A stretch of 64,000 nt of DNA, taken from positions 1,612,001 to 1,676,000 of the forward strand of contig NC_134297.1 of NCBI RefSeq assembly GCF_949628215.1. Direction: 5' to 3'. Positions within the stretch are counted from its first letter, which is position 1. Each line of letters starts with the position of its first letter. A program made the position numbers and the translations under genes. Source of the DNA: Phalacrocorax aristotelis. Taxonomy: Eukaryota; Chordata; Aves; Suliformes; Phalacrocoracidae. A model generated the notes under the pieces. It was not told where the DNA came from, ran no database searches, and saw only the letters and a program-made list of their open reading frames with translations. Below, piece after piece: positions 7,528 through 53,665 of the stretch.

Positions 7528-8876
7528 CTACAAATCTGTCCTTCCTGGAACAAATTTGGGTCTTGATATCTTAGCATCACTCACCAGAGTCCTATTTCCT
7601 GATTTATTCATCAACAAGTCCTTGCCTTGAAGCAGTGTAATGATGTTTTCTCTTTGATGTCTAATTGCCAACTGGAGTGCTGTACAGCCAGTGATATCTT
7701 CCACATCAAGCAGAGCACCAGCCTTAATCAAGGTCTTTATAATGGCCATATTGCCTTTGAGAACAGCAAGGTGCAAGGGTGTCCAACCCACTTTGTTCTT
7801 AGCATTGACATCTGCCTTGCACTCCAGAAGATTGATGACAGTCAAAAAGGAGCCTCGTTGGACTGCAAAATGGAGGGGGGCCCACTCTGACTTCTCAGTG
7901 ATGTTGGGATCTGCCCCACATCTCAACAGCTCACAGACTACTGGCTCATCACTGTAGCGAGTAGCCAAGTGAAGGGGTGTCCAGCCCATGCTTCCTTTGG
8001 CATTCAGTTTGGCACGTCTGTCTTTTAGCAGGTGGATTATTTCAATGTGTCCTTTGAAAGAAGCCAGGTGCAGCGGGGTCCAACCTTTGTCTGTCCTCAG
8101 CTCCACATTGGCTCCGTATTTGATGAGTTTCTCGCAGATGAGATACTTCCCCCTCACCACAGCAAGGTGCAGGGCACTGTAATGATTTTGATCCAGGCTG
8201 TTAACAGAGGTCCCATTCTTCAGCAAATAATGGACTACCCTGAACTTCCCCCTCTCCACAGCAACGTGAAGTGGGGTCCTATGGTTCTTCTGCTTTTTCT
8301 CCAGGTCCGCTCCTTGACTGGCAAGCAGTTTCACGAGGCTGACATGTCCAAAGCACGCTGCCACATGGAGAGCAGTTTTCCCATCAACCTCCTGGGTGTT
8401 GGAGTCAGCCTGACGAGATAGCAGTACTCGGGCCACATTCTCAAAGTTGTTCTGTGATGCCAAGTGCAGAGGGGTCCACCCGTCATGCTCTTGAGCATTT
8501 ACCTGTGCCTGGTGGTCCAGCAAGAGGCGTACAATTCTGTCGTCCCCATTCTGAGCAGCGAAGTGAAGAGGTGTCCAACCATCATCATCAGGCAGATTGA
8601 TGTCAGCATCATGCTCTATCAGAACTGAGCAGATCTCTGGCGACCTCTTCTGAACAGCCATAATGAGTGGGGTGTAGCCACAGGCTGCCTGGCTGTTCAC
8701 ATTGGCTTTACAGCTCAGGAGAAACTTCACCTTTTCCACATTTCCCTGGATCACCATGAGGTGAAGCAATGTAAGGCCGTTTTCATGGACTCTACAGATT
8801 TCCTCAGACAGGATGTCCTCTGGACTTCCAACCTCACTGTAAGAAGGTGGTATACGAACCTCCTGATTACCAGTTT
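7528..8876 (-). CDS. ANKK1: ANKK1 exon 8 (terminal, ankyrin repeat array)
   Basis: This exon runs from a TTTAG acceptor at 8,877 to a TAG stop at 7,528-7,530. It encodes residues 336-784. After a linker of about 35 residues come about twelve ankyrin repeats with recurrent GWTPLHxA or GxTPLHxA cores. The whole array sits in one uninterrupted exon, as I recall for human ANKK1. An open frame continues upstream of the acceptor, but that part is intron. Confidence 0.95.
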
Positions 8877-14800: not shown

Positions 14801-16433
14801 GCAGACTGAAGACCTGCCTCTCACAAATCTGGAAACCTTCTAAAGCAAGCAGAAATAGCCATTGAACAATTCCCCCCAGCTGCACAGGACTACAGGACCA
14901 ACACCGGCCCTTCTTACAGCCCCCATGGAAAGGAAGGATTTTTGGCACAGCCATAGTACAGGACAGAACAGTCTTGCCTTGTAAACCAGAGCTCACAGGG
15001 CTTACTGAAAAGTATAATATTAGTCAGAGCAGCCTCAAGGCTGTTTGGACATATGTAAGGGGCAGGAAAGTCTTTTATAACACTACATTGGAGCGCAAAG
15101 TTGTTTTCATGACAAACTAGTATAACTTCAGTCCCTAGGCGATCAGTACAGTAACTGTTAAAGGCTATTTTTCCCAAACTCAGATTTTCAGATTTAGTTT
15201 TTCAAATCCTGGTGATTGTAGAAATAGGCGTTTCTTCAAAAGAGAAAAAAAAATCTATGAACATTTCTGTCCACGTTCAACCATTCTTCTGGAGTGTAGA
15301 CTAGCAGCTGAGATAATCCATGAAAGCCATATGATTACATTTCCTAGAACGGATATATGCAGAAGTAAAACTGGTGGACCTGACTCTTTTCTTTTCGCCA
15401 AAAAGAGAATGAAATGCAAACATAACATCTGATGAGCATAAGCAGCGCAAACTAAAGAGGACAGTCACTGTCCAAATTGAACCACCTCAGCTGTTGTCAG
15501 TAACATGACAAGAAAAGCCACATGAGCATGTGATTTTTAACCAGGCAGGATCCTTCCAGCTTGAACGGAATAAAATTCTAGAATAAATGACTTCATTGAC
15601 TCAGTTCGTTTTTTCATCAGGACTGCCTATATCCTATGGGGTATCGGCAGGGGTTGCTATTACCTGGCTTCGTTCTATCTCCAGACCCAAGGTAGTCAGC
15701 AGAAGAGTCTCTGCAGGTGAGAGACAGAGCAAAAAGTAAAGTGAAGGTGCAGGTGCACCATCAAGAGAAAAGAGCATGTCTGGAGGGTAAGGCAAGTGAA
15801 GGAGCAGAGAACTTTGCGAGCCCAGCAAAAGCAGCTGGAAATTCACTGTCCCTCAGCTTTAAACCTGGTGATTTTGATGACTATTTTAGTTTAATTGATA
15901 CCCATTAGTCCCAATGTCCAGCGAAAGCGTCGAATAAGTAATTAGACTGTTTTATCCACATGCCCATGTTTAGTTTAGGATGCCTACTTCAGCCTCCAGA
16001 TATCAACATTAATTGTTCCGAGTAAGCGTTCCTTTCCCACTTGCACATGCACATACACAAATATGAAAGAAAAAGAGGCACAACTCCACATCACTAGTGT
16101 TTTTTCCACTCCGAGTACCCAGAACTCGACTTCCCAGGGAGAAGAAGTCATGTGAACATTTCCTTTGCAGTTTTAGCATCAAATCACCATAGACGGCTCT
16201 AACTGACAGTTTAAACTGCTGAGCTAGCAGAGACCGCATAGTTACCTCTCCATGCTGGAGTCCTGCAGCAGGTACGGAGAGCATTTCACTGCATAAACTG
16301 TTCTCCACCTCTTGTGCTTGACTTGGTACACATGCCCAAAGCCTCCACTGGCCACTTTAATCCAGTCTTCTTCAAAGTCCTCCTTATTAAAGACAGTTAA
16401 GCTGCCCAGTTGCCGGTCTTTCTCCAAAGTCAT
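7528..16433 (-). CDS. ANKK1: ANKK1, ankyrin repeat and kinase domain containing 1 (8 coding exons)
   Basis: Joining 16,433-16,246, 12,763-12,469, 12,048-11,897, 10,979-10,930, 10,832-10,677, 10,407-10,289, 9,303-9,258 and 8,876-7,528 gives 2,355 nt, i.e. 784 aa and a stop. Every join is GT-AG and in phase. Human ANKK1 is about 765 aa and matches along the whole length from memory. The N-terminal half is a RIP-family Ser/Thr kinase: glycine-rich loop at residues 28-35, Lys50 in VYAVK, catalytic HLDLKPGN (Asp146), and DFG at 164-166. The C-terminal half is about twelve 33-residue ankyrin repeats with the TPLHxAxxxG core. The family is presumed cytoplasmic or nuclear; substrates are poorly defined. 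The start ATG at 16,433 gives the same leader length as human. The gene appears intact. Confidence 0.95.
9258..9303 (-). CDS. ANKK1: ANKK1 exon 7 (46-nt micro-exon)
   Basis: This small exon lies between an AATGAG acceptor and a GGTG|GTAAGT donor. It enters in phase 0 and leaves in phase 1, so it bridges exons 6 and 8. It encodes [15 protein letters not shown] in the linker between kinase and ankyrin domains, where human has a similarly acidic stretch. It is assigned by phase and position only. Confidence 0.7.
10289..10407 (-). CDS. ANKK1: ANKK1 exon 6 (kinase-ankyrin linker)
   Basis: The acceptor is CTGGTAG and the donor CAGCAG|GTGAGC. It encodes a helix beginning [15 protein letters not shown], close to human DITIETDILLSLLQS at the end of the kinase domain. 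Confidence 0.9.
10677..10832 (-). CDS. ANKK1: ANKK1 exon 5 (kinase C-lobe)
   Basis: The acceptor is TTTTTCAG and the donor ACAG|GTGTAG. It encodes the C-lobe helices, including [20 protein letters not shown], the conserved CW-x6-RP motif of tyrosine-kinase-like kinases. Confidence 0.95.
10930..10979 (-). CDS. ANKK1: ANKK1 exon 4 (50 nt, kinase C-lobe)
   Basis: The acceptor is TGCCTGCAG and the donor GCAG|GTAAAT. It encodes [18 protein letters not shown], the kinase subdomain IX helix (human SFAIVIWELLTQKKPYSG). Confidence 0.92.
11897..12048 (-). CDS. ANKK1: ANKK1 exon 3 (activation segment)
   Basis: The acceptor is GCTTGCAG and the donor ACAG|GTAGGG. It begins with [12 protein letters not shown], so it carries the DFG motif, the activation loop and the YIPPEMF (APE-equivalent) segment. 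Confidence 0.95.
12469..12763 (-). CDS. ANKK1: ANKK1 exon 2 (kinase N-lobe and catalytic loop)
   Basis: The acceptor is TTTTTCCAG and the donor AAG|GTATGA. It encodes the alpha-C helix ([15 protein letters not shown]), the hinge and the catalytic loop [15 protein letters not shown] in place of HRD is also present in human ANKK1 as I recall it. Confidence 0.95.
12764..16245 (-). other. ANKK1: ANKK1 intron 1
   Basis: This 3.5 kb intron lies between the first two coding exons. I saw no RNA gene, repeat family or nested reading frame that I could support. Confidence 0.6.
16246..16433 (-). CDS. ANKK1: ANKK1 exon 1 (start codon, glycine loop)
   Basis: The ATG at 16,433-16,431 starts [15 protein letters not shown], matching the human LGSLPVF start. 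The glycine-rich loop ASGGFGHV and the catalytic lysine (VYAVK) follow. The donor is GAGAG|GTAACT. Any 5' UTR exon upstream was not identified. Confidence 0.93.
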
Positions 16434-26385: not shown

Positions 26386-26391
26386 TTTATT
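26386..26391 (-). terminator. Candidate polyadenylation signal of the mucin-ZP gene
   Basis: There is an AATAAA on the minus strand, 88 bases past the proposed TAA stop. It supports placing the gene's last exon at 26,535-26,479. Confidence 0.5.
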
Positions 26392-26478: not shown

Positions 26479-26535
26479 TTAAGCTCTGCTCTCCCTTATA
26501 GCTGGACCACTACTACACTGCAGTTTGTGGACTTG
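26479..26535 (-). CDS. Mucin-ZP gene exon 7 (cytoplasmic tail, stop)
   Basis: A C/T-rich tract and TGCATGAG acceptor precede 18 codons (QVHKLQCSSGPAIRESRA) and TAA. Phase 0 fits exon 6, and an AATAAA lies just downstream. Other AG sites nearby give different short tails. Confidence 0.5.
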   Translation of the reverse strand, partial: QVHKLQCSSGPAIRESRA

Positions 26536-29500
26536 CTCATGCAGAACCAAAGAAAGGAAGGAGAGATATGCTTAAAGCAGAGATTGGGCATCTTGTTCCC
26601 TGGGTCAGCAGAAGCTTTACGAAAGCAATACAGTATGCAGAGCAAAATCAATTGCTTTTCTGAGCATTGTAGCAGTGGCGTGGGATTTGCAGGACCAGTC
26701 GGCTGCTCGTGGTTCACAGGCCATGGATTTCTCCAAGCTGTGGATAACCTACGGTTTTGGTTTTCTGTCTATGATGCAGCCAAAGGCTTATAAAAGCACT
26801 GCCCAAGACAGCAAAGCCGGTAAGGGATCCCAGCAGAATGGGTACCAGCATGGCAGAATCAGGACCTGGAAAGAAAGAAGGAAGTAATCAAGCAGTGAAC
26901 AGTGTTAAGAAGGGAAGGGAGAAGGGAGAGAAGGTTAAAACCCCCTTTCATCTTTATAGCGTGCCAAGTAGGACGACAAACTTTCTTTCCATAGAGTAGT
27001 CTGAAAGGGCAGTGCCTTTTCAAACACGCTACCTTCTTTGCAGTAAGTTCCCAGCTGTAAAAATTCTTTGCATAAACAAGTAAAGACACAAGAATTTAGG
27101 TGTCTTTCAGGGGTGGTGCCAGTGGATTTAAGAATTCTCTCATGCTCGTGATATGCCAGGTTCAGTGTCACTCCTTTCTAATAGCTGGGCAACATCTAAT
27201 TAACATTAACCATCTGCTGTATTTCGCCTCTGAAGAGAAAGAAAAAAGAAAATGCTCCTGCCTCATGACCAGCTTCATTCTGCACCAGTTAGATTTTTGT
27301 CCAGTTACCTGTGGATGGTATTTCCTTGCTGTAGCAGGTAAACACCTCTAAATATGGGGACTCTTCCTTAAGCTCTGTACAAAAATGACAGCATTGCCTT
27401 TTCATTCTAAAAGCTGCAAAGCTAACAGAAAAAATATACTTAAAAGGGGGCCCTATACCCTGGTTCCTCCTATCTTATCTCACCTAAAACCCAGACACCT
27501 GAAGGAAAGAGTTAGTGGATGTGTCTCACAATTCTTTAAATGACATTCCGCATCCTCAGTCAACATGTTTCATCAAAATACTGCAACATGCAGGAAAATT
27601 CTTCTCAGCTAGAGGACATTCTGCCTTATTTTTCTCCCCCTCTTCTTCTTCTAAAGCTTCAGTTCCCGCAGAGGATACATTTGGGTGTGTCTTCTGTCTG
27701 AAAAATCTATCGGGTCTGAGACTGATTAACCACCATGTTTGGGATTTTGGAAGGCCCAAACAAAGATGAGGAGTTCTTGGGATATAATCTAGTCACGCCA
27801 GAATGCCATCAAGAAGGTTTTAAGAAGTGTACTCCTTTTCTTACAGCAGGAAAGGTTGAACAGAAACTTCTTCAAGAGACAGAGAGAGAGAAGAAAAAAC
27901 AGGAGACCCACCTTCCACACGTTTATATAGAAACCTGTTCTTCATTCTCAAAACTGGACCAAATGAGATCAGGTTGTGCAGGTTTCCATAGCTATTCCAG
28001 TCACTTGGCTGCAGGAGTGGCTCCACACTTTCAAAGCAGTCCTGGAAAGACATATGAAAAACATTTGAAAGTGTACTGGCGGCACCTCAACAGAATCTCC
28101 TGCGCGAGCGACTGTGCCCAGTCCGTAGTAACCACGGTGCTGAACAGAGCAGGTGTCCTTGGATTCCGTTTTTGTCCAGCTCTGCTGTCATTCCAAAAAG
28201 TGCGTCGCCTAATATTTGGACCAGCTTTTCTGTAAATCTGTATGCCCTAATTCCTTTTCCTTAGGGATTAGCACCTATTGCTACAATATCATATCATTAA
28301 CTCGTCTTCCAGACTTCTAACAAAGGCATTGATGAGATATGGGATCACTCTGATGTGGTGACTTTGTAACAGGAGGTGGATGAGTTCTTTCCCAGAGAGT
28401 CTAACTCTCTTTTTAGGCCCAACGGTTGTGTTTGCAGGCCAGGAAGTACTGTCGGAGCAAGCAGGGCATAGGCAAGATGCAGACATTCATCCCTCACGTG
28501 CCCATGCAATTGGCTTTCTAATTCCTGCCAAAGCTTCTTAAAAGCAGGCTCAGCCTGACTGGCTGAATTTTCAGAGCTTTTCTAGCTCTACTGTGCAGCT
28601 CACCCAGTCAAACTTTCATGAATCTCTCTTCTAAAACCATCTCAAACACTTCTTTGCACTACTTTTGTAGTGATGCGTGTTTTAAATCCACAGCATGGCC
28701 TATGGCTAAATATGAGACACTGTGCCAAGTGTTTCACAATAGCCTTATCCCTGAGCCCTCCAAGCTTGTGGAAGCCTGGAAATGTCCATATCTCAGACCC
28801 AGGACAATCCAATATAGAGGTAGACTTGAGCCTTTTCATGTAATTCTAAAATGCAAAGTTATATAGCTCTGCTGAGCCTTTTCCTTGCGGTTCTCCTATA
28901 AGGTTGCTACTTGCTTATTTGTTGATATGCTTCTTATGTTGATTACATAATGCAACAGTAAATTGTTTGTGGTTATAAAGTGAGACTACAGCACTGTGAG
29001 CTCGGTTACCTTAACCAAGAGTAGAAATTCAGCCGGGGCGGGCTTTAGGAGACACAGAGTATGCAGGAGATTAAGGAAGACCTTTATGAGCTGGAAGAAG
29101 GTGGAGCTCTATAATCTACCATCAAGATTCTTTACTGAATCGGCTATACCTGCTGGAAGCATCAAATCTTTCCAGAAGTTCCGTAGGCCAGTGAAAGCGG
29201 ACCCGTCCCACGTACCTGTTCGCACCCTGTTTTGCCTTGCAGACAGACATTAAGCTCACAGTGCAAATAGGCCACTGAATGATTCAGCATCTGGAATAGC
29301 TGGATGGTGAAGCTAGCAGCTCTGGACTTACTGCTCTGCAGTAACTGGATGTGTCTGCATTCAAATGGCAACCTGGCAAGGACAAATGGCAAACAGTTTC
29401 AAACTTCAGCTCTCCCTGACTAAAGGCAGGGAAGAAGGGGATCTGCTGACACAGGTCTGCACAAGTTCTAAGCCAGGTAGCTCTATCTACAGAGTCAGAG

Positions 29501-32500
29501 TCAAACAGAGAACCACAAAATGGCAGCATCTCAGGCTGTACCTGTCCCTGCTCTGGAGGCAACAGTCCTAGAGCAGCAGAATTGTTTCTTGGAGGTTGAT
29601 TTTGCTACAGCCATTACAGTGGCTGCTGTGGTGCAATAATCATTCCCTGACCTAGACAAATTCAGCAGCACTGCAGAGGTGATTTCCTGCTGTAGCTGAT
29701 AGGGGCAGATCAGAAAGGTCTTTTACTGACTAAAATAATGCGTAGCACTTCTAACGCACGTTTCATGCCCCAGTGGTTTTACAAACATCAACTGATGAAT
29801 CCTCCTATTTCCCTGTGCTCAACCCAGACAGGTCAGGCAAGAATAGCCATGAGATGCTGATGGGGGAATGGAGGCCTGGAGAAGCCTGGCTCCCATCGTG
29901 GACCGCTCTGCTCCTAGGCTGTGCCATCCCCTGCAGGAAGTGCAGGAGGATACTGCAACCCTGACACCGGCGTGGAGAAGTGGGCATGCTAATTTACATA
30001 ATTTACATAAGGGAGATTTTTTTCACCTGAGGGTTCTTTGTCTTATCAGGCCCTTAGTGTTAATTACAAGACAGCTAAGGGTCCAGAGCACTCTTGGACT
30101 CATTCTCACTGCTTTGAGCTTACTCTGAACTCAAAGCCACAGGATGCGAGAGGGAGGGTCCTCTAAGGATCAGCCCGTTCCCAGCTGAGGCCCAAAGGAC
30201 CACGTGAAGCTACGCCCATCTCTGCAGCTCTGTGTCTGACCTGCGGAACAGGCAGCACATTGCGCCCGGTCCCCCCGGGCTGGCGGAAGGCGTCACACAG
30301 CACGACCGGATCTGGAGCACGGGCTGGCTGCTGTTACTCTGCACAGCGATCAAAGCCAAGAAAGTCTCCTGGAAGGACGCTGACCCTTCGGCCTCAGGGC
30401 CTGCTTCTGCAGCAGGGCGCAGGCTCATCTGCACGGTGTAGTTACCGGAGCCGCAGACATCATCACTCACAACTGCAAGGCTTTAGGGAAAGAAGGAAAA
30501 AAACTGAGGCCCAGCTAAGCTCCACAGCCTGTTAGAAATAAAACAGCGTTAGGGTGAGTTTCCTCAGTGAAACCAAACATGAAGTTGAAACAAACGAACA
30601 ACATGTAGACCCTGGCATGTCAGAGCCTCCTATGATCAGAACCAACTCCTGCCTCTCTGCACAATCAAATCATTTTAACTGAGGGGACCCTGGAAGTGTT
30701 TCACTGTGTGGGAATATCTACCTTCTTTGCTGGTGCATTTGATCACCTGAGCATTTGATCAAATGCTCCCACTTGCAAAATTGCACATAGATCATTTCTG
30801 GGAGGAGAGGCAGAGAGACGAAGGCTACTGTGAAAAAGAAAACCAGGTCTGAAGGGCAGCATTAATAACCAAAATATGAAATCACCCATTTTTCTAATGT
30901 GATGTCATTGCTGAACGAACGAAGTGTTTTTAAAACCAGAATACAGCGTACTCACGTTAACTGAGCCCATGGAGCAATTTGGATATTAACCCCCCACCTT
31001 AAATCATGCAGCATAAATACACAACAGCAGCTACACTGAGGTAATTACCCATTCAGAATGGCAGCATCTGACAGCAAAACCCTCCTCTCATGTGATTCGC
31101 TCAGCAGCGCACGGGGCTCCGAACCCAGCAGTGTTAGAACAGTTACTAAGCCTTCGGCTGCTTCGTCTGTTACTTCGCTTGTTCTAACCTTCTCTTCTGC
31201 CTCTGTGTTCAAGAACAGCCTTTCAGATTGTCGAGCGTTTGCAACACCCAGCAAGGCATTCGCCTCTGGCGTAAGCACTACCAGACTCTGAGAGGAATAC
31301 AAGGGGCTCTCTGGGATTGGAAGGAACTGGGTCAGATTTCTGGCAAGAAGCACCTCAGCATCATTGACAGCTACTTTTTTCAAGACAGCTGACTGATTAG
31401 TAACCTTATTTACAAGCCTATTAGCAGAGATGGAAAATGCTTTTGTTGTAGATGGCCCAGTGGTATGCATAACAGCGTCAGGGCTAGAATGACCAGCCTC
31501 CTGTCCAAAGTTATCTTCCAGTAATACCCTCTCCAAAGGGTGTCTTGCTGATGCCTGATGCGGTGAAGACACGGTTGCCCGCGTGGGCAGCTGGCTAGCA
31601 GTGGCTGCATCTCCGTTCACTAACATGTCTTCACTCCTCCCGTTTGGTGTAGAGACCACAGTTGATTTGCTCACTCTGGCAACTGTAGGCAACACCATGT
31701 TTGGATCAGATTGGGCAGTTGATGTTGGCAGCAGAAACACTTTTTTATTTGTAAGTGAAGTAGTAATATAATAATTCCTAGCTGCAGAGAGAGAAGTCAC
31801 TGCTAATGGAGGCCGTGATGTGGTCTGTGTCAATTTAGGCTGTCTCTCAAGAGCAATAATAGCTCCTGCAGACACAGGTGGTTCTGCCGGAGTAAAAACA
31901 ACCTTATTTGTAAGAACTGCTGTGGGGGGTTGCTGTGTCCCTGTGTTAAACATAGCTGACAGAGACACACTTGTTCCCAAGAATTTACCACTTCCTGTGT
32001 TTCTTGCACTTTTGCCAGCTGCAGTTGGGTTTGTGTTTTCTCCCATGTTGGCCTGTGTGAACAGTTTAGTAGGGGCTTGATGGATTTGGTCAGGTTTCAT
32101 GGCTGATAGCAGGGGAACATGTGCAGATACAGGTGAAGGTGAGTTTCCAGGAGAGTTGCTATACATCCTTGGATGGGTAACTGTAGCTGTAAGTTTTGCA
32201 GAAAATGTTGTTTCCATGTGGACCTTTGTTGAAAATGGAGTATGTGCTGGTGCTATTATTGGTCTCTCTGTCATTATAAAGGACTTAGGCACAATGGATG
32301 TAAAATCCAAATGTTTAGTAAGATCAGGTTTTATAGAAGGTGTACGGGTCTGTGCTGCTTTAGCATGCACAGTGACTCCTCCTGAACAGGCCATGCTGCC
32401 TGCTGCTGAATCTTTACAATCATTTGCGGCTGGAAGCGCTGAGAAAGCTGATGATGTGCTGGATACAAACTGAACTTGTGATGGCAGCATTTGAAGTGAC

Positions 32501-35500
32501 TCAGTACTCAGGAGACTTTGCCATGTGGACTGCAAAGGCATGATACTTGTGAATGTCTTGAATGGGTATTTTACGGTTCTATCTGCATGCAAGCTCAAGC
32601 ACTCTGTGCATTGTGCATGGACAGAGGAAGGTGTGGTCACTAAGCCGTCGCGATGGCCAGTTGTTTGCAGCATTAGTTTCTTACTGTGCTGAACCTGATC
32701 TACAGTCCCTGTGATAGTAAATGGAGGTTGGGCAGGCATTGGAAAATCAGGGAGTCCCTTTGCTGACCGTAAAGGAATTACAGAAGAAGAATTTGGCTTT
32801 TCAGCAGTGAAAAATACTTCAGGGGAAATAGGGGGGCTATGCTGTGCAGACGCCACTAATAGTGGTGCAGTGGAGGTGAAAGGCGCTGCTAACGTACCCT
32901 TAAGTAAAAGCAAATCCGTCCCCTTGGCCTCTTGGGCACTGGGAGGAGGTACCTGCACCTCTTGAGGCAGCCTGTGCAGATGCACGGCCTGCACTGTAGT
33001 GCTAATCCTCATCCGCGGGTCCAGCAAATGATTGGATGCTGAGGTAACAGCTTGAAACAAACTAGTGATGGCTTTATAATTAGGATTAGTTAGCATTGGC
33101 TGAGAAGTTACTTTTTTTGTCTCTGCTTGTTGATTAGACAGAGTGGAGAGAGTAGTTTCAGGCCTCCAAAACTTACTAGGGGGATAAGAGGAACTAGTTC
33201 TCATTGGGATATCATGGCTGCTCTCAGGGGTACCCAAATTCAGATCTTGCTTGTTTGTGAACAAGAGGGCAGTTTTCTGGTCATCTTCACTGTCGGGAGA
33301 GGGCACCATCTGTAAATCTGGTCTGTCAGTCGACAAAAGGATAAATACAGGCTTAACCAGAATTAAGCTAGAAGGACTCAGATTTTGTAAATTTGCAAGG
33401 TCCAGCACTGAAGAATTTGATACTGCCAGGATTTGCTGAATGGAAACCAGACCCCCAACACTGCTATTTGGGAATTTTGTAGGTCGAGGGGAGTCTTGCA
33501 TGGGCTGCAGGCATATCATGCCATTAGTATGTGTAAGATTAAAGGACAAATATGGGGATGATGGTAGCATTGTAAGTTTACCTCTAAAAGCACTGAGGTT
33601 TTTGGTAGCTGCATCACGTGACATACTGAACTGCTGCACTAGTGCTTGTGCCAGGTGTGCAGGGATCTCATCAGAAACACTGGACACCACCAGTTCAGGA
33701 TGTGCTGTTGTTGAGCTGGACTGGCTTCCCTGTGCATGGAGTGAGGGCAGTTTTGAAGCAAAAGCTGCCAGGCTGCCAGCTTGCTGCATCTGGGAGGCTG
33801 AAGGGGCAAAGCTGTGAAGAGGAACTTTCTGGTTCCCATTGTCATGCAGTCCAGAGGGGCTGGGGACTGGGCTGGCTTGTGGCGTCAGTGGGAGAGAACC
33901 AGTTTTACCTATCTGTTGTGGCAGACTTTTCTTTTTCTTGGCGTTTTCCACTGTGGTCATCTGCAGCATCATAGGGAAGGCTTCCCGAGACACAGGATGG
34001 GCAGAAATGCCTTGAACCTGAGATCCAGAACCAGTAGATGTGGATGAAGGTGGTATGTGAAGTCCTTTCTCAGCCGAGGTGGGGATGCCCATTAGCTGCA
34101 AACCAGCATAAGTAGGAAAAGATGTACCTGATGGCGGAAGCCCTGCATGAGCAAAATCAAAAGTACTTACAGGTTGAAGGGCTGCATTTTCAAAGGTAGA
34201 CGTACTGGGAAAGAGCGCAGATGTTAATTCTTTTAGCTCTTTAGTAGTTAGGGAAAGTTTTAATGTGGGCGTCCATGATTGGCTTAATGAGGATGAATTA
34301 GCAGAAGCTTGGGGGCTCTCAGGGAATCTGGATTTTTCAGGTTTACTTGTCATTGTCTGATGATCAGTATCTCTTTGTAAAACTAGAACTGTGATTTCTT
34401 GAGAGGTCCTGTTGGTTTCTTCAGAAACATGTTGTTTAGTACAGTTGAGCGTCCGTGACAAAGAGAGGGGCTGTTGCCTATCAGTTTTGCTAATGGGCCC
34501 TTGAAATGGAGGTGGAAGTAACTCATCATGAACTAGAGCTTCCAGATGCATCAATAATGAAGAAGAATGTATGTTGCCTTGTGGGAGTGTCTGAAGAGCA
34601 GGCAACAGGCTTGGGTGTCCAGAACCATTTTTTACAGCTGTTGTTGAGTTTCTGGCTTTACTGCCTGTTGTTTCTTGCTTCAGAGATAAAATAGGATAAA
34701 ACTGAATAGCACTTGTTGTTCTGGAATATACTGCATCAAGGTCCCCTGAAGCTGGCTTTTGTAGGAATGCAGAAGTTGTGACTTTAGCGTCCATGCTCTG
34801 AGTCTTCTTCAGGTATGCAGGTGTCACACCAGCTTTGCTGTCAGGCTGGACTTGCAGATTTGTATCTTTTGGCCTTTTGCTGGTGGCAGGTGTTCCTGTT
34901 GGTAACGAATCCACCCTTGCACTTTCTAGAGCAATCTTAACTCTGGTGAGAAGTGGAGATTCTGATATTTCTTTTCTTGGAGGATGAAAATTTACCGTTG
35001 AAGTCAGAAGAGATGTTTTAGGACTTGGCACTTCCAGCTGCTTGATAACAGGAATGGAAGAGACAGCTGTCAATTCGGGAGAGTCCTGATGTGTCCCTCC
35101 ACTGAGAAAGGGCTGAGGCAGCCTAGCGCTAGAGCTGGTAGGACTGAAACCAGCCTCGATAATATTTTCTGGTTTTCCTTGCAGTGATGTGTCTGGCTGT
35201 TCGAGACGCATAGTAGCCTGTGATCCTTGTGTGGAGGCAGGGATGCTTATGCTACTCAAGAGCTTGCTAGGCCATGTGTGCCCATCCTGGGGTTTTAAAG
35301 GTGCTGCTTCTGTGTACAGGTGCTCAGGCACCTCCAAGTTTCTAACCAACTCCTTAGGCAGCACGGCTGTTCTTTTTGCAGCTGTCTGTCTATGGACAGG
35401 AATGAAGTCAGCTCTCGTTTCATTGGTAGGATCAACTGCTGGACTCCGAAAATTAAAGGTCACCTCATCTGAGTTATCGTCTGTAACGAAAAACACTTCG

Positions 35501-37662
35501 CTGGGTGCTGGGCTCCTCTCAGCTCTTGGTTGCGCTTCTCCAGGAAAGCTCAGGCCTAATACTTCACTGACATGATGTTCATTCGTGGAGGCACCTAATG
35601 AACAGAAAACAAGCCCTTTGCTATTCAGTAGTACATGAGCTTTTAACAGCTTGCAGCAGCACTTTGCAACAGGCAGAGCGGGAAGCGGAAAGTTAGGTAG
35701 CCACTGACTCCATTCAGAACCATACAGGAGGGATGATGGGCAGCTCTGGCACTGCCATTCTTACAGTAAGCTGCTATAAATCTGATCCTCTGCTGTTTAT
35801 ATTCAGTGACATATGCAGGATAACACTTCATACTCCTGCCATGCTGATGCAAATCATTAACCAGCCAGAGAGGAACGCTTTATCTTAATTGTGCAAGGAT
35901 ATACATGACAGCCGAAGATGCAGGGAGAATGAAACCCTCACATTGCCCAAGGACAGGCTGGTAGCTCTTTAACAGCAAAGCAAGATTAATGTACACATGA
36001 ATGAGCTCACTCACCTGGCTCTGCTTAACCCCTCTTCCTCCCACAGTATCCCAGTCCTATGATGAGTTTCCTGATTCATACTGGGTGACCAGGCAGGACA
36101 AAGCTGGTTAGTTTTGTGGAAGTGACACACAGCAGACAGAACACTAACTTCTCTACTTTTAACTTCTCAAATCAAAAGCAGAGACAGTCATTTCAAGGGG
36201 CAGGCTTACAGTTTAAAAGGCTATTTTCCAAGCATATTTTCCAAATGATGGACTAAAATATTAATGTACTTTCCTCTCCAAAAACTTTAAGCAGTTTCTC
36301 TTAGCCTCCTTCTAGTAAATACAGGTATCTAAAAGGTAAAAAGTGATTATGCATTTAAATGTTAGGCATTTAAATTGTGGTTTTTTTTGACAAAGGCAGA
36401 GCAGAGGTTTAGCAGTTTTGCTTCAGATGAAATCCCTGAGGTTTGCATCCAAGTGCCTTAAGAGGAGATTACAACTTTGTGGTCATTTGGAGATCCAGTA
36501 CTACTTTCAGTCAACAGTGAGCAGGGTAAGATGATATAAGGGAACCCAAGAAGCTGATGTATTACAAAAAAAAAAAAAAAAGGAAGTTAACAGATGATGA
36601 AGACTGGTATATTAAATCTATAAGATATTTCAACTGTGGTTTTGTATAAACAAATGAAACTCCCATGGTTTGGCCCCAACTCGGCAAAGCAACACCAGCG
36701 ATCTGTCTTTATAGAGAAGCACTTACTGAATCAAGGTCTTGTGTAAAGAAAGCGGTGTAAATATCCACAAATACACCTTGCAGAGGGACAAGGTAATTTA
36801 AAAAAAACATAACAAACCCCACAAAAATAAAAGAATTACTAATTATGTGGAAAATTCTTTTGACACCACCCCCCCAAGTTTATCTTTACTGAAGAGAACA
36901 GCCTGCCTGAAGTCACAAGACTGCTTCTATTAGCCAAGTTAATTTTATGTACACTTGCAGGATATGCTCACAGGCACACAATAAGAGGTTGAAAGCAAAG
37001 ACTGACTGGTTCCCTGCAGTGAGTGACAGCAGCCCTAGGAACTTGCTTGAGGTGTGACAGCATTACAGACTCATCATTGATTTCATGCTGTCAGAAATAT
37101 TTGGCAGGACAGCTGTTCCCAAAGAAAATGCAGAACAATGTGTTACTGCATGGTGAAGAGGGGATATGAGGCAAATCCCCATGCTTAATGTAATAAACAG
37201 TGGTGCCTGGAAAAGTATATTCTGAACAAGGCTTCAGCAGACACGAGTTTGATCCTCAGTTCTGCTATGGACCTACTCTGTGAAAAGTGATTTTATTTTT
37301 CCTTTGCTTTCCCCCACCTGAAGGGAACAATATATTCTGTGGTGAATGGACTATCTCTCAGTTTAGGTAAGTAGCACAGCTGTGTCCTGATTTGGGGCCA
37401 CTGATACTCCTACAGCTGAAACCCTTTAAAGCAAATCTTGAGCCTTTCAGCACAGCTGCGCAGAGAGAAGTTGCTCCTTCATCTCATTGTTGTCACACAC
37501 CTGTGACTGATGGCACAATATTTAGCATAGTTTTTCTGCTCACTGATAACAGAAGAAGAGGCAGAAAGACAGTAATTGTGATTAGAACAAAACACATCAC
37601 TCACCAGATAAATCCAATAGTCCAGCTGCAGTCAGAATAAAGATGGGGAATTTTTCCTGCAT
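26479..37662 (-). CDS. Unnamed mucin-like transmembrane protein with ZP-C-like module (7 exons)
   Basis: Exons 37,662-37,605, 35,594-31,049, 30,480-30,241, 29,372-29,216, 28,041-27,912, 26,865-26,753 and 26,535-26,479 join in phase at GT-AG sites to 1,766 codons plus stop. The predicted order is a signal peptide (residues 1 to about 20), a Ser/Thr/Pro-rich region (to about 1,535), and a ZP-C-like module (about 1,536-1,700) with many cysteines and the strand YLHCELNVC. A basic site (KNRFLYKR) follows, then one transmembrane helix (1,716-1,740) and a short basic tail. ZP modules mediate polymerisation or ligand presentation of extracellular proteins. An apical mucin or receptor role is inference. 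No ZP-N half was found. I cannot name an orthologue, and human lacks a gene here as far as I know. The first and last exons are the least certain. Confidence 0.85.
26753..26865 (-). CDS. Mucin-ZP gene exon 6 (transmembrane helix)
   Basis: The acceptor is TTCTTTCCAG and the donor AAAACC|GTAGGT. It encodes a 25-residue hydrophobic stretch starting MLVPILLGSLTGFAV, then a basic stop-transfer HHRQKTKT, as expected of a type I membrane protein. Confidence 0.88.
27912..28041 (-). CDS. Mucin-ZP gene exon 5 (end of ZP module)
   Basis: The acceptor is GTCTTTCCAG and the donor GAAG|GTGGGT. It starts DCFESVEPLLQPSDWNS, supplying the last cysteine. The basic KNRFLYKR lies about where ZP proteins carry their processing site. 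Confidence 0.85.
29216..29372 (-). CDS. Mucin-ZP gene exon 4 (ZP-C core)
   Basis: The acceptor is TGTCCTTGCCAG and the donor GAACAG|GTACGT. It encodes SFTIQLFQMLNHSVAYLHCE and then NVCLQGKTGCEQ. The F-x-F-x-x-x...V-Y-L-H-C pattern is the hallmark of the second half of ZP modules. Confidence 0.92.
30241..30480 (-). CDS. Mucin-ZP gene exon 3 (start of ZP-C)
   Basis: The acceptor is TTCCCTAAAG and the donor CGCAG|GTCAGA. It encodes CGSGNYTVQMSLRP, FLALIAVQSNSS and LQIRSCCVTPS, resembling the ZP-C pattern of a V-x-M strand, then an L-x-x-C-x-x-T-P turn. The first bases of this exon are duplicated at 17.51 kb. Confidence 0.88.
31049..35594 (-). CDS. Mucin-ZP gene exon 2 (4.5 kb Ser/Thr/Pro-rich exon)
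   Basis: A single uninterrupted frame of about 1,515 codons runs from a TTCATTAG acceptor to an AATGG|GTAATT donor. It is dominated by Ser, Thr, Pro and Ala, with several N-x-S/T sites and only a handful of cysteines, as in densely O-glycosylated mucin-type regions. I saw no exact tandem repeat. The frame extends beyond the first internal start-like codon at 35,496 to the acceptor and joins the signal-peptide exon in phase. Confidence 0.92.
35595..37604 (-). other. Mucin-ZP gene intron 1
   Basis: This 2.0 kb intron shows no additional exon that I could support. In particular I saw no cysteine-bearing ZP-N segment. A poly-A run lies near 36,565-36,581. Confidence 0.5.
37605..37662 (-). CDS. 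Mucin-ZP gene exon 1 (signal peptide)
   Basis: The ATG at 37,662-37,660 starts MQEKFPIFILTAAGLLDLS, with a hydrophobic core typical of a secretory signal. It is followed by TCTG|GTGAGT. The phase 1 end fits exon 2. The 5' UTR and promoter are not defined. Confidence 0.72.
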
Positions 37663-37984
37663 CTTGTGAAGCAGCTCCTGAGTCACCCCAATAACAATAT
37701 ATTCAGACAGGAAGCAGCTCACTACGGAGCCACTGCTGCCTCTTAGCAATGGGCATTTGCTGTGTTTTTCTGGAAGGGCAGAGTATTGGGTTACTTATAA
37801 GAGCTTAGGCCAGACAGCAACCAATAATCTGTTCCAAAAAAAAAAAAAAAAAGCCTGCACCAATTGGAATCGCTTGATATTTTTAACAAAACAAGACAGT
37901 GTGTTCATGTGCATGGTGAAGACGGAAACCGTGATTGTAAACATGAGGGGTTGCCTATGCAAGGTAGCTCTTTATCTCTGAAGA

Positions 37985-42100: not shown

Positions 42101-45100
42101 CTGAAAAGACAACAGAAAGGTTGCTGGGGGAATATAAGACAACTAACAACAAAAGTTTTAAGCTTCCACTGCTCTGCTATATTCCATGCCCAAACTGCCA
42201 TGGATGTTTAATGCTACATTTGATAAACTCCTCCTAAAGTAGCAGGAGAAAGAGTTTCTAGAGTACTATTCCCCACAAAAACGAAAATGAAAGTTCTAAA
42301 TAACTGACAAGTGTTTAAATAGGTGACATTTCAAATTAACAACACTAAGAGAATAAAGTGTTTCCCTTTCATGTCTCTGGAGTGTTTTGCAAATCTTAGA
42401 GCTGATACTTTCTCTACTGGTCACTTGGGATCTCCAACAGAAGCAAGGTTCTTAAACTTTTGGAACCTAAGCATTATCCCTTGCTTTCTGCAGTAGTTCA
42501 GGATGTACACTAACAAGCAGAACTCAGTTCCTCTGTCTGGAACACAGTTCAAGATCCAGCTGACAGTCTGCAGCTTGCTAGAGCTTGGCATACTCTCGGC
42601 AGGCAGCAGCAGACATTCTTTGCTGACATTTGTGCTTTTGTTTTGCTTTCATTATGGCTCTGATCTCTACGAACTTATAACATCACTCCTCCTCCTTCCA
42701 TTCTTCCAGCACAGGTAACATCAGAAAGCAAAATGAGCTCCCTGAAACACATTAAGACAGACAACTAACAACACAGGAACCCTCCAGCAACAACACAGGT
42801 ACCCTGGGGACAATACCAAAAGTGGGAATTCTAGCTGGAGGAAGGGTGATAGATTTCACGGGATATTTATATAAACTAATCATCTGTCCTGTACCTGCTT
42901 GCTCTATGAATAGAATCGACTTACACTGGTCAGTTTTTCAAGATTTATCTCCTAATAGCAACCACATGGTGCAGAAGAATGATAGTCTTCTTTACAATAC
43001 CTTGGTTCAGCGACACACAGCTTCCCCAGAGCAATTGCTGCATTCTCCTGCACCGAAGTTCTTGCAGCATCGCCACCAGCGTGTTTCAACAAAATCATCA
43101 CAACATTGGAATTCAGTAAGGATGTCGCTGCTCCGGGAACTGCAAGGCACTGGCCAAGGCAGAAAGCAGCATTTCCCACAATCATTTCATTCTCTGAGTC
43201 CAAGAGGTTTAGCAGCACACTGAACCCTGGGAGAAGGAGAGATTAATTGCACAGAATACACATGGATTTGTTCCAAGTAGCACTGATGTTTTTCTCTTGT
43301 CTTTACTTAAAACTCCTGGGGAGCAAGCATTTTTCCATGTTGGAAATTCTTCTAGAAAACCTGGAGGAGCAACAGAATTTCAGGGCAAGGTTCAGGATCC
43401 AGAGTGCTGTCCCAGCTTCACCTGCATAGATGTCTTTCTCAGAAAACTGAATCTACACTCCAAGAGGTTCTCTAGCATGGAGCTTGCGTTTCTGCATTTG
43501 CTTAATATTTCTCTGAAGGTGAACATGCCACCTTTGCTGCTTGCAGGATCTTGCACTGGCCTCTCACCCTACCATACTAGCAGGGCAAGCACAGAGTAGA
43601 GCACCTACAGTGCTGAGCTAAATGTTTAAGACAGAAATGCCATTGTGGAAGGAATAGCTGAAAAAAGGAATATTAAAAAGCTTTCTATATATCCTTAGCT
43701 AACACAAAGCAGCTAGCTCATCTACTTCTGTAACCTATACTAATGTACAGCGGCAGAGTATTTTGCCTATACTCTTGACGCAGAGTTGTGTAGGTCTTGC
43801 TGGCATCTGTAAGCAGCAGCAGCATCTCAGGCCACAGTATCTGGAAATATTTAGATAGACTGCCTTCTAAATAAAATACAGCACGGCTTTCACATGCATG
43901 AAGTTTCCTTGGGGGCTGCATAAGTTTGCTTTGGTTTTCTTTCATGGTCCCATCTGTTCTTGCAGATCACATCCCACCTTTTCTGCTGCAATAATGTCTT
44001 TGGAAAAGGCAGTGCTGCTCTAGACAGCAACAGTGGCTGGTGTAGAAGCTGCACTAAGTGGCCCAGCTGGAATGCAATTTAATGTCACAGGACTACAGCT
44101 TGATGCCACCAGCCTCCTAGCAACAGGGCAACGTCTGGGTTGGCAAACAGAGATGACAAATATAAGGAGTGGTGACTTCTCACCAGATTAATGCCCAGAC
44201 TTTTGGTGGAAAGAATGAGAGTGAGGTGTTTTTGCTAATTTGAGGAAATGAAAGCTTCATCTACAGATGACAGTGAAACTAATATGGGATGTACAAAAGG
44301 AAGATGATGCTCTGAGATGCTTTTAATGAGTGGAAATCCTTAGGGTTCAGGTTGAACTACATGAGCTGACAGTTTCTTGACAGGTTCAACCATTTAGATA
44401 AAACTTAAGTATTCTCTGTTGTGGTTACATTAGCATTAATTGAACCTGGATTTTAAAGTGATCTAAGTAGTGTTTTACTGCATGACTAGAGCAAATATGC
44501 TCAAAAATACTCTAATACACCTGGTCTGATATCATCACTCTGTCTCAACATCCGTTTCCTTTTAATACCAGGCCAAATATCCACAAGTAAATTGAAGGAA
44601 ACTATAAACAGCCTCAGCCTCTGGAAATCAGATGCATAAAAGAAGTTTCTTATTTTAGCCACTAACTTGGGGAAATACAACCCAATTCAGTTATGGTTTA
44701 CAAGCACATTTTTAAAAATATATATATTTCTGGCTCTGAAAAAGCATATCAAGCCATTTTACTAGAGTAAAGCGCAGTTTCTCTAACTCAGACTCATTAT
44801 CTGTTTTGCCTATTTCCATCCTCACACAGAGCTAAGGCTCATTAAACTCCATTTCAGGAGGTAAAACAGCACATTACTCAGAAAACATGGCTAAAGTCTT
44901 GCAAGAGTAAAACCCAGTGTTCAATTCTGTTCTAGAGGATCATCTAGAGGATGATACTGAGATCACACCTCCGCATTCAGTCTCTAATTAGTGAAGTTGT
45001 CACTTACTTTTATCTGACTTCACTAGATCTTCTTGAGCTTGGCTATTACTTCTGGTGCAGATGGAAAGGGTCTTTATACCATAATTGGATGTGGTCTGTC

Positions 45101-48100
45101 CTCCAGCCTAGATTTCATCAGAATAAAGGATGCATTAACAAACATACAATTCATAGCACAACTTACTCAAGGTTACAGAATAGCTTAGGTACCATGGTGA
45201 TATAATTAGGTATTCCTCATGCCTAAGCCCAAATACCAAATTAAGACCTTTGCAGAGTGTACATCTCAAGATGAACACAGGCTGAAAGGGACATAAGAAC
45301 CGTCTCTTTCCTGCCCGCAATGAACATACAGAAGTCCCTGAATCTCTGGAGCCCAGCTCCTTTCAAACTATTAACTCCTCTGATGCTTGCTACTTACACA
45401 AGCCAAGCTGAGTGCCACCACCTTGTTCTAGAATGATTTTATCTGCATCATAGCAAATCCCCAGAATCCACATCCAGCTGGGTGGATACACATTCTGCTA
45501 GATACACAGATATACAGCAAAACAGTGTCTACAGATGCATTATTTAGGGAAGAATTGCTCCAAGATTGATTCAGCTCCATTGCTTTTCAGTGGTCCAAAT
45601 TAGATCACACCAATTTTAAGCTTTAATCCTCCAGCCGGGCCTGAAGTAGTGGATTCTCAAATTTGCATATCTCTGCAAGCAGAGCTGTGCACGGGCATCT
45701 GGCTCATACGGAAACAAATGAAAAAGCTGGGCTACAGACCAGACTACAGAAGGCAGTCCAGTCTCCAATCTGGCTACTGAGCTTAAAATTAAACTTGAGA
45801 GCACTATTACAACAGACAGCACAGATGCAGACACATGCAGCCACAATGACTGCACAGGTCTTTCTCCTAGGGAAAGGAGGCTAGACAGAGGGGCAACTAT
45901 GGTTTTCTTAAGGTACAATACAAGCAGAAATAAAGTGAAATTTGTTAAATGAATTTACTTTCAAGAATTTGATCATTTTCTTCACCACCCCTCCTTTCAC
46001 TACTTCGTCTACCGCCGAGGAGGATGCTGCCAGGATGCGACTTAGCACTCCAATGGCTCTCTTAATTAGAAAACAGTGTGAGAGAAGAAAAAAAAAGTTT
46101 ATTTGTCCAGACAACTTTAAGGAGTTTTCAAATTATTTTCTTTTTTGCAGAATAAAAACAAAGTAATTCAAGTGATAAAAGTTTACAGAAATATAATGAA
46201 GAACATCTTTAGGACATGGCTCTTGTTATTGCTTATAGGAAACTGAGCTCAGTACAGCTTCTAAAGACTCAGTGGAGAGAGATGAGACCAAACTGAGATA
46301 AGGACAACTCCCTGTATGTTTATCTGTCAAACCAAATTCCTAGTAGAAACCAGCCCAGCACTGCTGGTATTGAGTCAAGTAAAACAGATCAGAACAATTT
46401 ATTTGAGTTCAGAAATGTGAACGGACTCCGAGTCCACATCTGCTCCTACCCATGTGCCTTGAACAACTGCTCTTTGTGGGAGTCACACCCACTAATAGGA
46501 GTACAGTCTTCTAGGTATGATTCACATACAAGAACTGTAAAAAGAAACAGCTCCTAAACACCCAAATCGTTCGTGTTCCTTTGCTCCTAGATTGATTTTT
46601 AAAGAGTTTTATATTGAAAACCATCCTAAGGGTGGAATGATTTGTAAGAGTTTCTGTTAAGTAGATTTCAGGAGAACATTGAGAACCTCTTGCATCAAAC
46701 AATATAAAAAACTGAATAAGTGGTATATGATTTCTTTACTGCTAATAATTATGAATGTTTTAGGCTTCAAAGCTTAAGGTACAGACTTGCACAGGGCAGC
46801 AGTTTGCACTGAAGTCGTCAGGTCAGGTCAGTTAATACAATCTTTCATTAGTCCACTGATATCCCACTTACTGTCACAATCCTTCCATCCTTATTCCTGA
46901 GGAGAGACATGCACCTGCCACTTATGTCCACAGCGAAGTACTGAAACAACAATGTGAAACGCTCAGGTGCAGCTGATTGCGGAGGAGTGTTACAGCAGAA
47001 ATGGGTTATAGACAGTACTCTCCAACAAAGAACCCAGTGGAGATCAGGGCACACATGGCAGTAAGTTACTAACACTTCAGCACCCAGATGTTAACTTAAA
47101 GAATTTTTCCTTCCTGATGGAATCATTAGTTTTATATAATTTTGGAATGTGCCAAGCATCTAAGAATATGCCGAAATTAGAGAGTGAGGCCAAACAAAAC
47201 ATTTAAACCACTATGGAAAGGTACTGTATGTGCTTTATACTGTATTTTTCTCATAACTGTGTGTATATGTGGGGGGGTGGAGGAAAAAAGTTTGTAAATT
47301 TTTTTGCTTTTTAGCTTACTGAAATTGACAGCTACCCTTAATGATAACCTTAGTCACCAATAAAAATTAAACATCAACTGAACAGCAGCAAAATCCAAGG
47401 TTGGCAGCCCTTAAATGCTTCAGCATGCTTGATGTGAAAGAGGGCTCTAAATCCATCTAACACAGTCAAGCTCTTTTCCCCTGTAGAGGCTGCAAGGTCA
47501 CAATATTCCCTCACCTATTCTGTTTACATGTTCTGGTATGACTTCAGTGACTTGCATCAGGCCCATTTACAGCAACAAGGAGGATGATGCTCTGACTGCT
47601 CAAGCAATGCTGAACCTCTGAGGAAGTGATTACAAGAAGAACACTACTACCAAAAAATGTTCACAGATTTGTATACCTGGATGATCACATTTGATTCAAG
47701 CAGTAAGTTCATCATTAGGCCCAGCACTGCAAACAAACACTCCTGGTATTTGGGCATGCTGACATAAAAGCAGTCATCCTGCATACAAAGAACAGAATAA
47801 TGCAATCAGTTCAGAGGTTCAGAATATGCGCTTCCTCAGTCTTCTGCGTGCTTACTTACTCAGAAGGAAGAAGTCATGTGAGCACCAGCTTTTTTGATAT
47901 AGATTCGTCCTTATGTTTGTTTCACTTTGGTATCTAAAGCTGCACGCTCCAAACTCCTGACATTTAGGCCATTAACAACATCCTTTCCCACCCTCTGAAT
48001 TCTTTCGTTTCTGAGGACTGAGTTCGTACCGCATTTTTACCCTGAAAGGGGCCACTTAAAATAAGGGACCACACACTCTCCCCCTCACCCATTTATCAAT

Positions 48101-51100
48101 CCACAACTTATGTGAACAACGGACCACTTTGACACCTTTATCCAACTCCCAGATTTGAAACATCTCAGTCAAGAGTTCAGAGCTATTAGGGGAGGCAGAC
48201 AAACGTGATCACAGAAGTGCCACTTCCACAGCAGGTAGGGCTGAAACCACTATTCTAGGGAGCCATCAAGTTTCTTTACCACCAGCTTTAAGCACGCTTG
48301 CCAGCATTCTTTGGACTCAGCCATCTGCGTTCGAATGACTACATCTGCACACAGATTCCCCATGATGCCAATGCAATGGGCAAGGGCTGCCTCGTTCACC
48401 AGCTTGGCAGAGGTCTAAAAACAGGAGAGAGTGGAATAACAAATTAAGAACAAATGACAAGGAAACAACAGATACATGTTCCTATCCCTCTGGCAATGGA
48501 AAATGGCATTCCAGAATCTCTCTAACCTATGTTAAATCCCAACTGTCCAAAGTTTGCAAATCACCCTCATTTTCACAGTGACTCTCCTGATGACATTTTA
48601 AGCAATCTGGGGAAAAAACGACTGGATTCTGTGGTCCCTAACCTCAGACTGAATGTTTCCTACTATCACTTACTTAGGTCAGAAAACAGACCAGCCTCTG
48701 CTGCATCTGTAATTCCAGTAAGGTATGTTCAAAAGGAGAGAGCAACAAGCAATGGGGAAATGCTGTAATTCTTGCATTGTCTTGGTGCTCGTTCGGAGAA
48801 GTGGAGGTATTTTACATTCCAGCTATATCTGCCATTCTGCAACAGAACCAATCTCCCCTACCATCTTGCCTCTTCATGAGGACAGGTTGCTGTACCAACA
48901 GTATTGTAGGTTTGCAGTTTAAATAAACGATAACCAGGAAAGGGACCTGAACCACTAAACAAATTTACCTTGTGACCTAATGTAATCTATTCACCCTGAT
49001 CTCTCGGATTAGAAAGAAACAGAAAAAGTCATTATCCAAGATATAACCAGTAGGTGATAGTGGACTAAAGCCACATTCACAAGAGCGTAACACAAAGCTG
49101 AGGGTGAAGTCCTGGCCTGACAGATTACCAGTGGGAATCTGCAACCAAGTCCAGAGTTTTCACTGAATATAAAACTAGTAACGTGTAGAAACCGAGCACT
49201 AAGCACTGGAGACTGAGAACATTTTCCTGAGGAAAGTATATGACAAAACTGGATTTCTAACACCTACAAAACTAGAGACATGGTAACTACTGTAGTTCTA
49301 CCAGAAAGGGGTTCTCTCTAGGAACAACTGGCTGTAAAACTGTCAAGAGGGGTCATAAGACATGCTACACAAAAGTAAACCAGAGGTATAGAAACGGAGA
49401 TCTTTCATACCAGCAACTGGGTGAATAAAGGTAAAACACCTGTGGAAAGCATGACACGACACTGGGTTTTGAACCTGTTAAGGGATAAAGAAAGCCATAC
49501 TTGGACACTTAAAGCTTTAGACAAAATCACAGATAAAGGCAACACAACAGCAACATAAAGCCAGGCAGACAGCAGTTAGCAAGGTACCCTCACAGCAATG
49601 GCGGCCAACAGCCTCTATCAGTAGCTCATTTAGCACGTTTCAAAGTACAACTTTATAAGAAAGAAGGTAGAAGTATAAGTTACCTTTCCTCTTCAGTTAA
49701 ATGAGATAGTATGTTCATGGCACTGCTAGCCCTGGCATCAGTGCTGTTGACAAACTTCATCAAAATCTGCAGCCATCTGTTATTAAAAAACCCCCGACAA
49801 TTTTGTGTCAGCTTTGGATTAATTATTAAAGATCAAAGTCATATTTTAAGTGCACTGACACAATTTGTCATCTTAAACTCCTTTGTGTTCAGTAGGGTTT
49901 TGACAAAGCTGGATATACTAGGCCCTCCAAACATACCCAGTCACCTCACTGCCATTAGAATAATATTTTGGCACTAGATTCTCTGCAATATTGTCCCTCT
50001 TTGAACAAGTACTGTGATTTCAACACATGTACCAATCCCTGTCAGCATTAGAACATTTGATCAGCATGTAAGCTTCACAGACATTTGAAGCCAAACTGCT
50101 TTGCTGCTGGTGAACATCTTCAGGACAGACAAGTAGAATGCAAGTCAGGACCAAGAACACCATCAGCAAAGCCCAGGACTGAACAGCGTCAACAGGTTGT
50201 AAAGACTTGCAGGGAATGTCAGTGGTGATGCTTGCGTGGCTTAAAAGGGCGTGCTAAGCAAACCCAACAGTCTTTGGAGGGGTTTAACTAAAAGGCTTTA
50301 TAGTAGTGAAGAAAGTGTCATCTCCTGCCTGAATAAAAAGAAAATCATACCATTCCCCTTTCGAGCTTTTGGAACAGTGTGTGCGTGTGGCTGTGGGATT
50401 TGAACTGCAGGCAATTCACAGGACTTCAGACTGTGAACTCTGCCAAACAGTAAGTACATCTGCAGACATGTGCTGGGGTTTCCACACGCTCCTCTACTGA
50501 GCTGAAATTCTCTGCCACTTTCCTCCAACTTTGTAGCACAGTAAGAGAATCTATAGTCTTGTCTCTTTTTGACGATGAGCCCAACTGCAGAGAAGATCAA
50601 TATCTGCAACTTTACCATCTGAACACCCTAACTCTTTTCAAGCAATCGGGTCCAGGATATCTCTCAGAAGTTGACAGAAGATTTTTCAGGCTCCTGATAT
50701 TTCGAGCCATAGTAATATCATCTGCCCTTTTTAAGCATCCTCTCAGATGTGGCTCATTTCTTTAACCTATCCTCCAGGGAAAAACATCTCTGGGTTTATG
50801 TTGTGAAGTGTGTAAAACTGTACGTTTTGCTCATCCATTACCTCAAACCATGTAGTGCAAACCAATAAAGTGAAATGTCTCCTCTGCTTAACTCGAGAAG
50901 AAAATAGTAGGACAATAGGATAAAGGTAATAGACTGCTGTTTATGTCCTCACTCAGTGAGTCATGGCAACACTGAATAATCATAAATACCGATTACCAAA
51001 TGTGGAGAGAGTCACAGCTTGAAACCATAAGATATTAAGAGACAAATGATTGTGCGCTAGACAAACACACACTTACTGGTTTAAAAAACTGGGTTAAACT

Positions 51101-53620: not shown

Positions 53621-53665
<45 letters not shown>

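Follow-up and report, generated by a model that had tools for sequence, protein, structure and literature searches.

A ZP-C domain gene between TTC12 and ANKK1 in Phalacrocorax aristotelis, predicted to encode a type I membrane protein and conserved from sturgeon to birds

The interval between TTC12 and ANKK1 in Phalacrocorax aristotelis contains a real, uncharacterised and widely conserved gene, already present in the predictions of annotation pipelines. It is almost certainly an old gene of bony vertebrates, encoding a type I membrane protein that carries a ZP-C domain. The best overall explanation, that of an old bony-vertebrate protein of this type acting as a tether, is evenly balanced, and the tether mechanism taken by itself has just under an even chance. 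The analysis was performed on a window of 64,000 nucleotides, the whole stretch of DNA considered here, located at C22:1612001-1676000 of the 1.28-Gb genome.

Gene model and locus

The gene consists of six exons on the minus strand, extending from 37662 to 26714 (Table 1). Every intron is bounded by GT-AG, the phases are compatible across the six exons, and their translation gives a predicted protein of 1760 aa whose single stop is terminal. A preliminary description of this DNA had proposed seven exons in one consistent phase, spanning 37662 to 26479 and ending near an AATAAA. Its splice sites and phase hold for six of these exons and its start is exact; the coding sequence stops at 26714, and the likely poly(A) signal is found at 26391, neither of them at 26479.

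The seventh piece, of 42 bp, had been taken for a real exon because it keeps the frame (14 aa, phase 2 on both sides). Its peptide is absent from all 62 homologs described below. The junction between exons 2 and 3 is readable in 30 of 46 homologs, 29 of which join the stalk exon directly to '..AVVSDD.CGSGNY'; the thirtieth, Corvus P0037, displays an intron-like read-through without the 14-aa peptide, and the same is observed in three later passerine models (P0054, P0055 and P0057). Judged by these alignments, the piece is spurious, at best a private cassette. Conservation among homologs shows the splicing of the six remaining exons.

Table 1. Features of the locus, in coordinates of the 64,000-nucleotide window
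Feature	Position	Length	Strand	Basis
Exon 1: start codon and probable signal peptide (MQEKFPIFILTAAGLLDLS)	37605..37662	58 bp	-	N-terminus similar in ostrich and alligator models
Exon 2: Ser/Thr/Pro-rich stalk, without direct repeats	31049..35594	4546 bp	-	Aligns with bird homologs
Stalk block, residues about 660-800, with Cys 714	33253..33675		-	Shared by birds, crocodilians and a lizard
42-bp 'exon' of the preliminary description, outside the conserved gene	30956..30997	42 bp	-	Peptide in 0/62 homologs; junction skips the piece
Exon 3: ZP-C domain, first part	30241..30480	240 bp	-	Pfam PF00100 match
Exon 4: ZP-C domain, second part (SFTIQLFQMLNHSVAYLHCELNVCL)	29216..29372	157 bp	-
Exon 5: last ZP-C cysteine, juxtamembrane stretch, hydrophobic patch	27912..28041	130 bp	-
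External-hydrophobic-patch (EHP)-like strand NLISFGPVLR, residues 1690-1699	27946..27975		-	Motif conservation, GP2 alignment, strand in Rhea homolog model
Exon 6: transmembrane helix, short cytoplasmic tail, stop codon	26714..26865	152 bp including stop	-
AATAAA, likely poly(A) signal	26386..26391		-	Sole AATAAA in 26714-25900
TTC12 matches (flanking gene)	43000..60637		-	tblastn with TTC12 parts of emu and Phrynosoma models; below 45006 Phrynosoma only
ANKK1 matches (flanking gene)	7531..16424		-	tblastn with ANKK1 part of Mergus model
ANKK1 ankyrin exon	7528-8967		-	Pfam Ank

The position between TTC12 and ANKK1, proposed earlier, is borne out by tblastn: the three genes follow one another on the minus strand in the order TTC12, this gene and ANKK1, all in the same orientation. 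Five homolog records are fused with a neighbour, namely with TTC12 in emu (P0025) and Phrynosoma (P0046) and with ANKK1 in Mergus (P0041), Eudromia (P0060) and Pangshura (P0062). Through these mis-fused records the same neighbourhood can be recognised in a lizard and a turtle as well as in birds. The gene is single copy in the genome at the tblastn sensitivity used, the best match outside its own exons being a UMODL1-like locus (E 7e-4).

Two other elements were observed nearby. Long reading frames on both strands at 22854-23396, between this gene and ANKK1, are due to a GC-rich minisatellite (52-bp unit, 10.5 copies, 87% matches). Reading frames at 37972-38466, just upstream of exon 1, resemble the terminal part of a reverse transcriptase from a CR1-type LINE, and a similar frame is present at C1 98672334-98672978.

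Homologs and their distribution

At least 62 distinct homologous proteins were collected, at least 42 in a first search, 4 new ones in a second and 16 new ones in a third, with length windows of about 976-3104, 965-3070 and 325-1032 aa, a limit of 8000 candidates in the first search and a requirement for shared 5-residue words. Among the matches listed, the best are bird proteins, with up to 81% identity, and the ibis Theristicus is the closest in the ZP-C/transmembrane part (93%). Birds are represented by palaeognaths (ostrich, emu, kiwi, rhea, tinamous), waterfowl, a quail (Galliformes) and many Neoaves, and the other sauropsids by Alligator, Crocodylus, the lizards Phrynosoma and Anolis, Gekko and the turtle Pangshura. 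Homologs are also found in two fishes, the sturgeon Acipenser ruthenus (4e-43) and the livebearer Gambusia affinis (7.5e-25), so that the restriction to birds or reptiles envisaged earlier does not hold. The absence from mammals, also envisaged, agrees with the data: no mammal or amphibian occurs among the 57 named of the 62 homologs (five, of 'lgn' source, are nameless), in a protein-level search that would miss a copy in mammals if it were very short, very long or without annotation. This distribution suggests a gene that is widely conserved and old in bony vertebrates, and that mammals may have lost.

In a midpoint-rooted tree of 22 ZP-C/transmembrane sequences, fish, crocodilians, squamates and palaeognaths form starred groups. 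Birds (87/97), Galloanserae (93/93) and Neoaves (80/68) are recovered as expected, none of them starred; 8 of the 19 inner branches are starred in all.

Annotation pipelines already predict the gene in dozens of genomes under conflicting names: mucin-17-like, mucin-5AC-like, proline-rich protein 36-like (PRR36-like), streptococcal hemagglutinin-like, uromodulin-like 1, TGFBR3-like or uncharacterized. The earlier qualification of the gene as unrecognised consequently stands for its function and for the lack of an agreed name, and falls as regards its prediction. No paper on this gene was found by title or abstract among the open-licence papers listed. Two individual records deserve mention. In the low-quality turtle record P0062 (Pangshura), the beginning of ZP-C is missing and one ZP-C cysteine is replaced by Arg (HAGRERNC), which may reflect decay in the turtle or a bad model; the Limosa record P0024 includes a fused phenylalanine-tRNA ligase domain (PF03147) and is probably a misbuilt model.

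Architecture of the predicted protein

The succession of signal peptide, mucin-like region, ZP-C domain and transmembrane helix given in the preliminary description is recovered. The Pfam search for a ZP family returned PF00100 (ZP-C) at 27.9 bits, above the curated cut-off of 24.6, and hydropathy peaks at 1.95 at residue 1720, in the transmembrane segment. Six of 7 homologs also exceed the PF00100 cut-off; the exception, Alligator (18.5 vs 24.6), is a model that seems to include intron read-through. A whole-genome PF00100 scan listed 23 matches, the exons of this gene not being among them. By the sequence criteria tested, the protein is a member of the ZP-C family.

The Ser/Thr/Pro region, described earlier as huge, is real but moderate, and weaker than in classical mucins (S+T+P = 32.5% over 1508 aa). 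Its reading frame is not a product of chance, because 16 of at least 42 homologs of the first search align over 100% of the query, open stalk included, with 54-79% identity. The long stalk is probably unfolded and glycosylated. Neither direct DNA repeats of at least 24 bp (0 families) nor a tandem array was found in exon 2, and the candidate assignment to the repeat mucins, defined by tandemly repeated PTS sequence, was rejected on these results and on the S+T+P content. A probable signal peptide, a long Ser/Thr/Pro-rich ectodomain and one transmembrane segment are shared with transmembrane mucins, from which the protein differs by the lack of direct repeats, the lack of a SEA or EGF match and a modest S/T/P content. 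PF00100 was the only Pfam family found, without any match to SEA, EGF or WAP, in the stalk, the C-terminus or 7 homologs; the UMODL1 arrangement, in which WAP or EGF and ZP are combined in one gene, was not encountered there.

Several local features of the stalk can be distinguished. The conserved block of Table 1 was recognised in a six-protein set in Alligator (5.4e-19) and Phrynosoma (4.3e-15), and not in sturgeon (0.22); it matches no Pfam family, gives no confident fold (mean pLDDT 47.1) and carries the strand-like motif SSLILVKPVFILL. A CxxC at residues 1015-1018 is present in the window protein and in 15/15 aligned birds. The sturgeon stalk also has a CxxC, which may lie at a different site. 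Several songbirds (P0037, P0042, P0054, P0055, P0056) possess long SHPLE(E/N)VS-like repeat arrays in the stalk that are absent from P. aristotelis.

ZP-N yielded no match in 7 homologs at E<=10 nor in the window stalk at E<=1, and the 300 residues preceding ZP-C contain at most 2 cysteines in 13/13 proteins listed. Past the last ZP-C cysteine, an EHP-like motif is found in 48 of the 49 ZP-C ends, P. aristotelis included, and reads KLISLGP in the 49th, from the hoatzin (63 sequences were considered, 14 of them without a ZP-C end by pattern). In a profile alignment this motif pairs with 'VLDLGPIT' of GP2. It forms a strand in the predicted structure, which also contains the transmembrane helix; this model is that of the Rhea homolog, not of the window protein (mean pLDDT 60.2, pTM 0.50). 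The fold of its ZP-C is closest to that of uromodulin, betaglycan also being matched, and in sequence ZP-C is nearer uromodulin/GP2 than betaglycan. A dibasic RR or KR between ZP-C and EHP occurs in 2 of 48 proteins, those of sturgeon and Anolis, and is absent from the window protein; the sturgeon has MRRSG directly before EHP. Many birds keep a single Arg there (PSDRNSYG), replaced by Trp in this bird, and a non-dibasic cleavage site may exist. The classification as a complete ZP module was rejected, ZP-C and EHP being found without ZP-N or a basic cleavage site.

A possible membrane tether and competing explanations

In uromodulin-type proteins, ZP-N is followed by ZP-C, then by a cleavage site and by an EHP strand, which keeps ZP-C locked as long as no cut is made (PMC7456536, PMC7665627). 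The cut before EHP frees this strand, whereupon the ZP-N/ZP-C subunits polymerise. The protein described here resembles uromodulin (UMOD) and GP2 in ZP-C sequence, in fold and in the EHP-like strand past the last ZP-C cysteine, but differs by its transmembrane helix, its giant stalk, the lack of a recognisable ZP-N and the mostly missing dibasic site. UMOD and GP2 have a GPI anchor and their own domains upstream. Since ZP-N is missing and a dibasic, furin-type site before EHP occurs in hardly any homolog, the protein is not expected to polymerise by the known uromodulin route, and its ZP-C should remain closed and attached to the membrane. The protein would be secreted through the ER and held by its one transmembrane helix, with ZP-C close to the membrane and the long stalk, probably glycosylated and unfolded, standing out into the glycocalyx. 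EHP would close the ZP-C fold while the protein stays on the cell.

Such a protein could serve as a tethered anchor of the glycocalyx or apical matrix, whose ZP-C would bind another matrix or ZP protein, much as LET-653 acts via ZPc, without forming filaments of its own. The linker of this C. elegans protein is predicted to be heavily O-glycosylated, and ZPc alone can localise and function in the apical matrix (PMC7665627). The same paper reports that cleavage is required, which counts against a simple analogy. LET-653 combines PAN domains with ZPn and a furin site and lacks a membrane anchor, whereas the present protein has a transmembrane helix. An apical or egg-coat placement is a guess, and an egg-coat filament protein is disfavoured because no ZP-N could be recognised and most homologs have no dibasic site.

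Standalone ZP-C families of nematodes mostly lack a predicted cleavage site (3-30% of members have one), and two of the three tend to end before the EHP strand, according to a 2020 survey, which presents them as the first isolated ZP-C domains and adds that other phyla might share them (PMC7456536). The present protein differs by its EHP and its transmembrane helix and, with the EHP strand retained, does not reproduce the nematode solution. A tentative reading, somewhat short of an even chance, is that of an uncleaved ZP-C-only membrane family on a mucin-like stalk, going back at least to the common ancestor of sauropsids and ray-finned fish and since lost in mammals, in which the EHP lock was kept and the polymerising half lost, ZP-C being the working part as a surface anchor or receptor.

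The retention of EHP is hard to explain if this strand is never displaced, and this observation, together with the sturgeon MRRSG and a fold closest to polymerising uromodulin, speaks for a shed protein of matrix or egg-coat type. Uromodulin is cut by hepsin; a hepsin-like or other non-furin protease would here cut past the last ZP-C cysteine and ahead of EHP, and the mucin-like ZP-C part so released would join an extracellular coat, perhaps capping or branching the filaments of other ZP proteins. Shedding of this kind is unlikely, however, in view of the 46 of 48 proteins without a dibasic site, the lack of ZP-N and the good conservation among birds of the transmembrane segment and tail (0.81 mean identity).

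Betaglycan (TGFBR3) and TGFBR3L also have a membrane-bound ZP-C near the membrane. TGFBR3L may be a ZP-C-only vertebrate protein. It is described as homologous to betaglycan ZP-C. By analogy, the ZP-C face could bind a TGF-beta-family ligand and present it to signalling receptors; the fold match and the TGFBR3-like name of the Prinia record are the points of likeness. Such a growth-factor co-receptor is nevertheless improbable: the sequence similarity is lower than to uromodulin/GP2, no orphan domain was seen, and the large mucin-like stalk is no hallmark of co-receptors.

That the gene is an artefact or decaying, as a chance reading frame or exon chain or a pseudogene, could be argued from the one wrong exon of the earlier chain, the anomalies of turtle P0062 and the several misfused or partial homolog models, but is very improbable: birds, crocodilians and sturgeon have long open homologs that share the junction and almost all of the cysteines. 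Identity with UMODL1 (olfactorin) has a negligible chance: although this name was borrowed by 3 of the 16 homologs of the third search (kiwi, rhea, Pogoniulus) and the nearest other ZP locus by sequence is UMODL1-like, this last is a separate locus at C1, about 98.68-98.72 Mb, with WAP, two EGF-like (one under cut-off) and ZP-C frames, which we take to be UMODL1 from its domain make-up, while no WAP or EGF was found in the stalk or C-terminus of the present gene or in 7 homologs.

The gene provides, by sequence, a vertebrate ZP-C case from sturgeon to birds in which the EHP strand is kept without a recognisable ZP-N (TGFBR3L may be a second), and makes the action of the ZP-C domain alone directly testable. 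The scattered names (mucin-17-like, PRR36-like, UMODL1, TTC12 or ANKK1 fusions) could be corrected. The locus also represents a candidate mammalian gene loss beside ANKK1 and DRD2.
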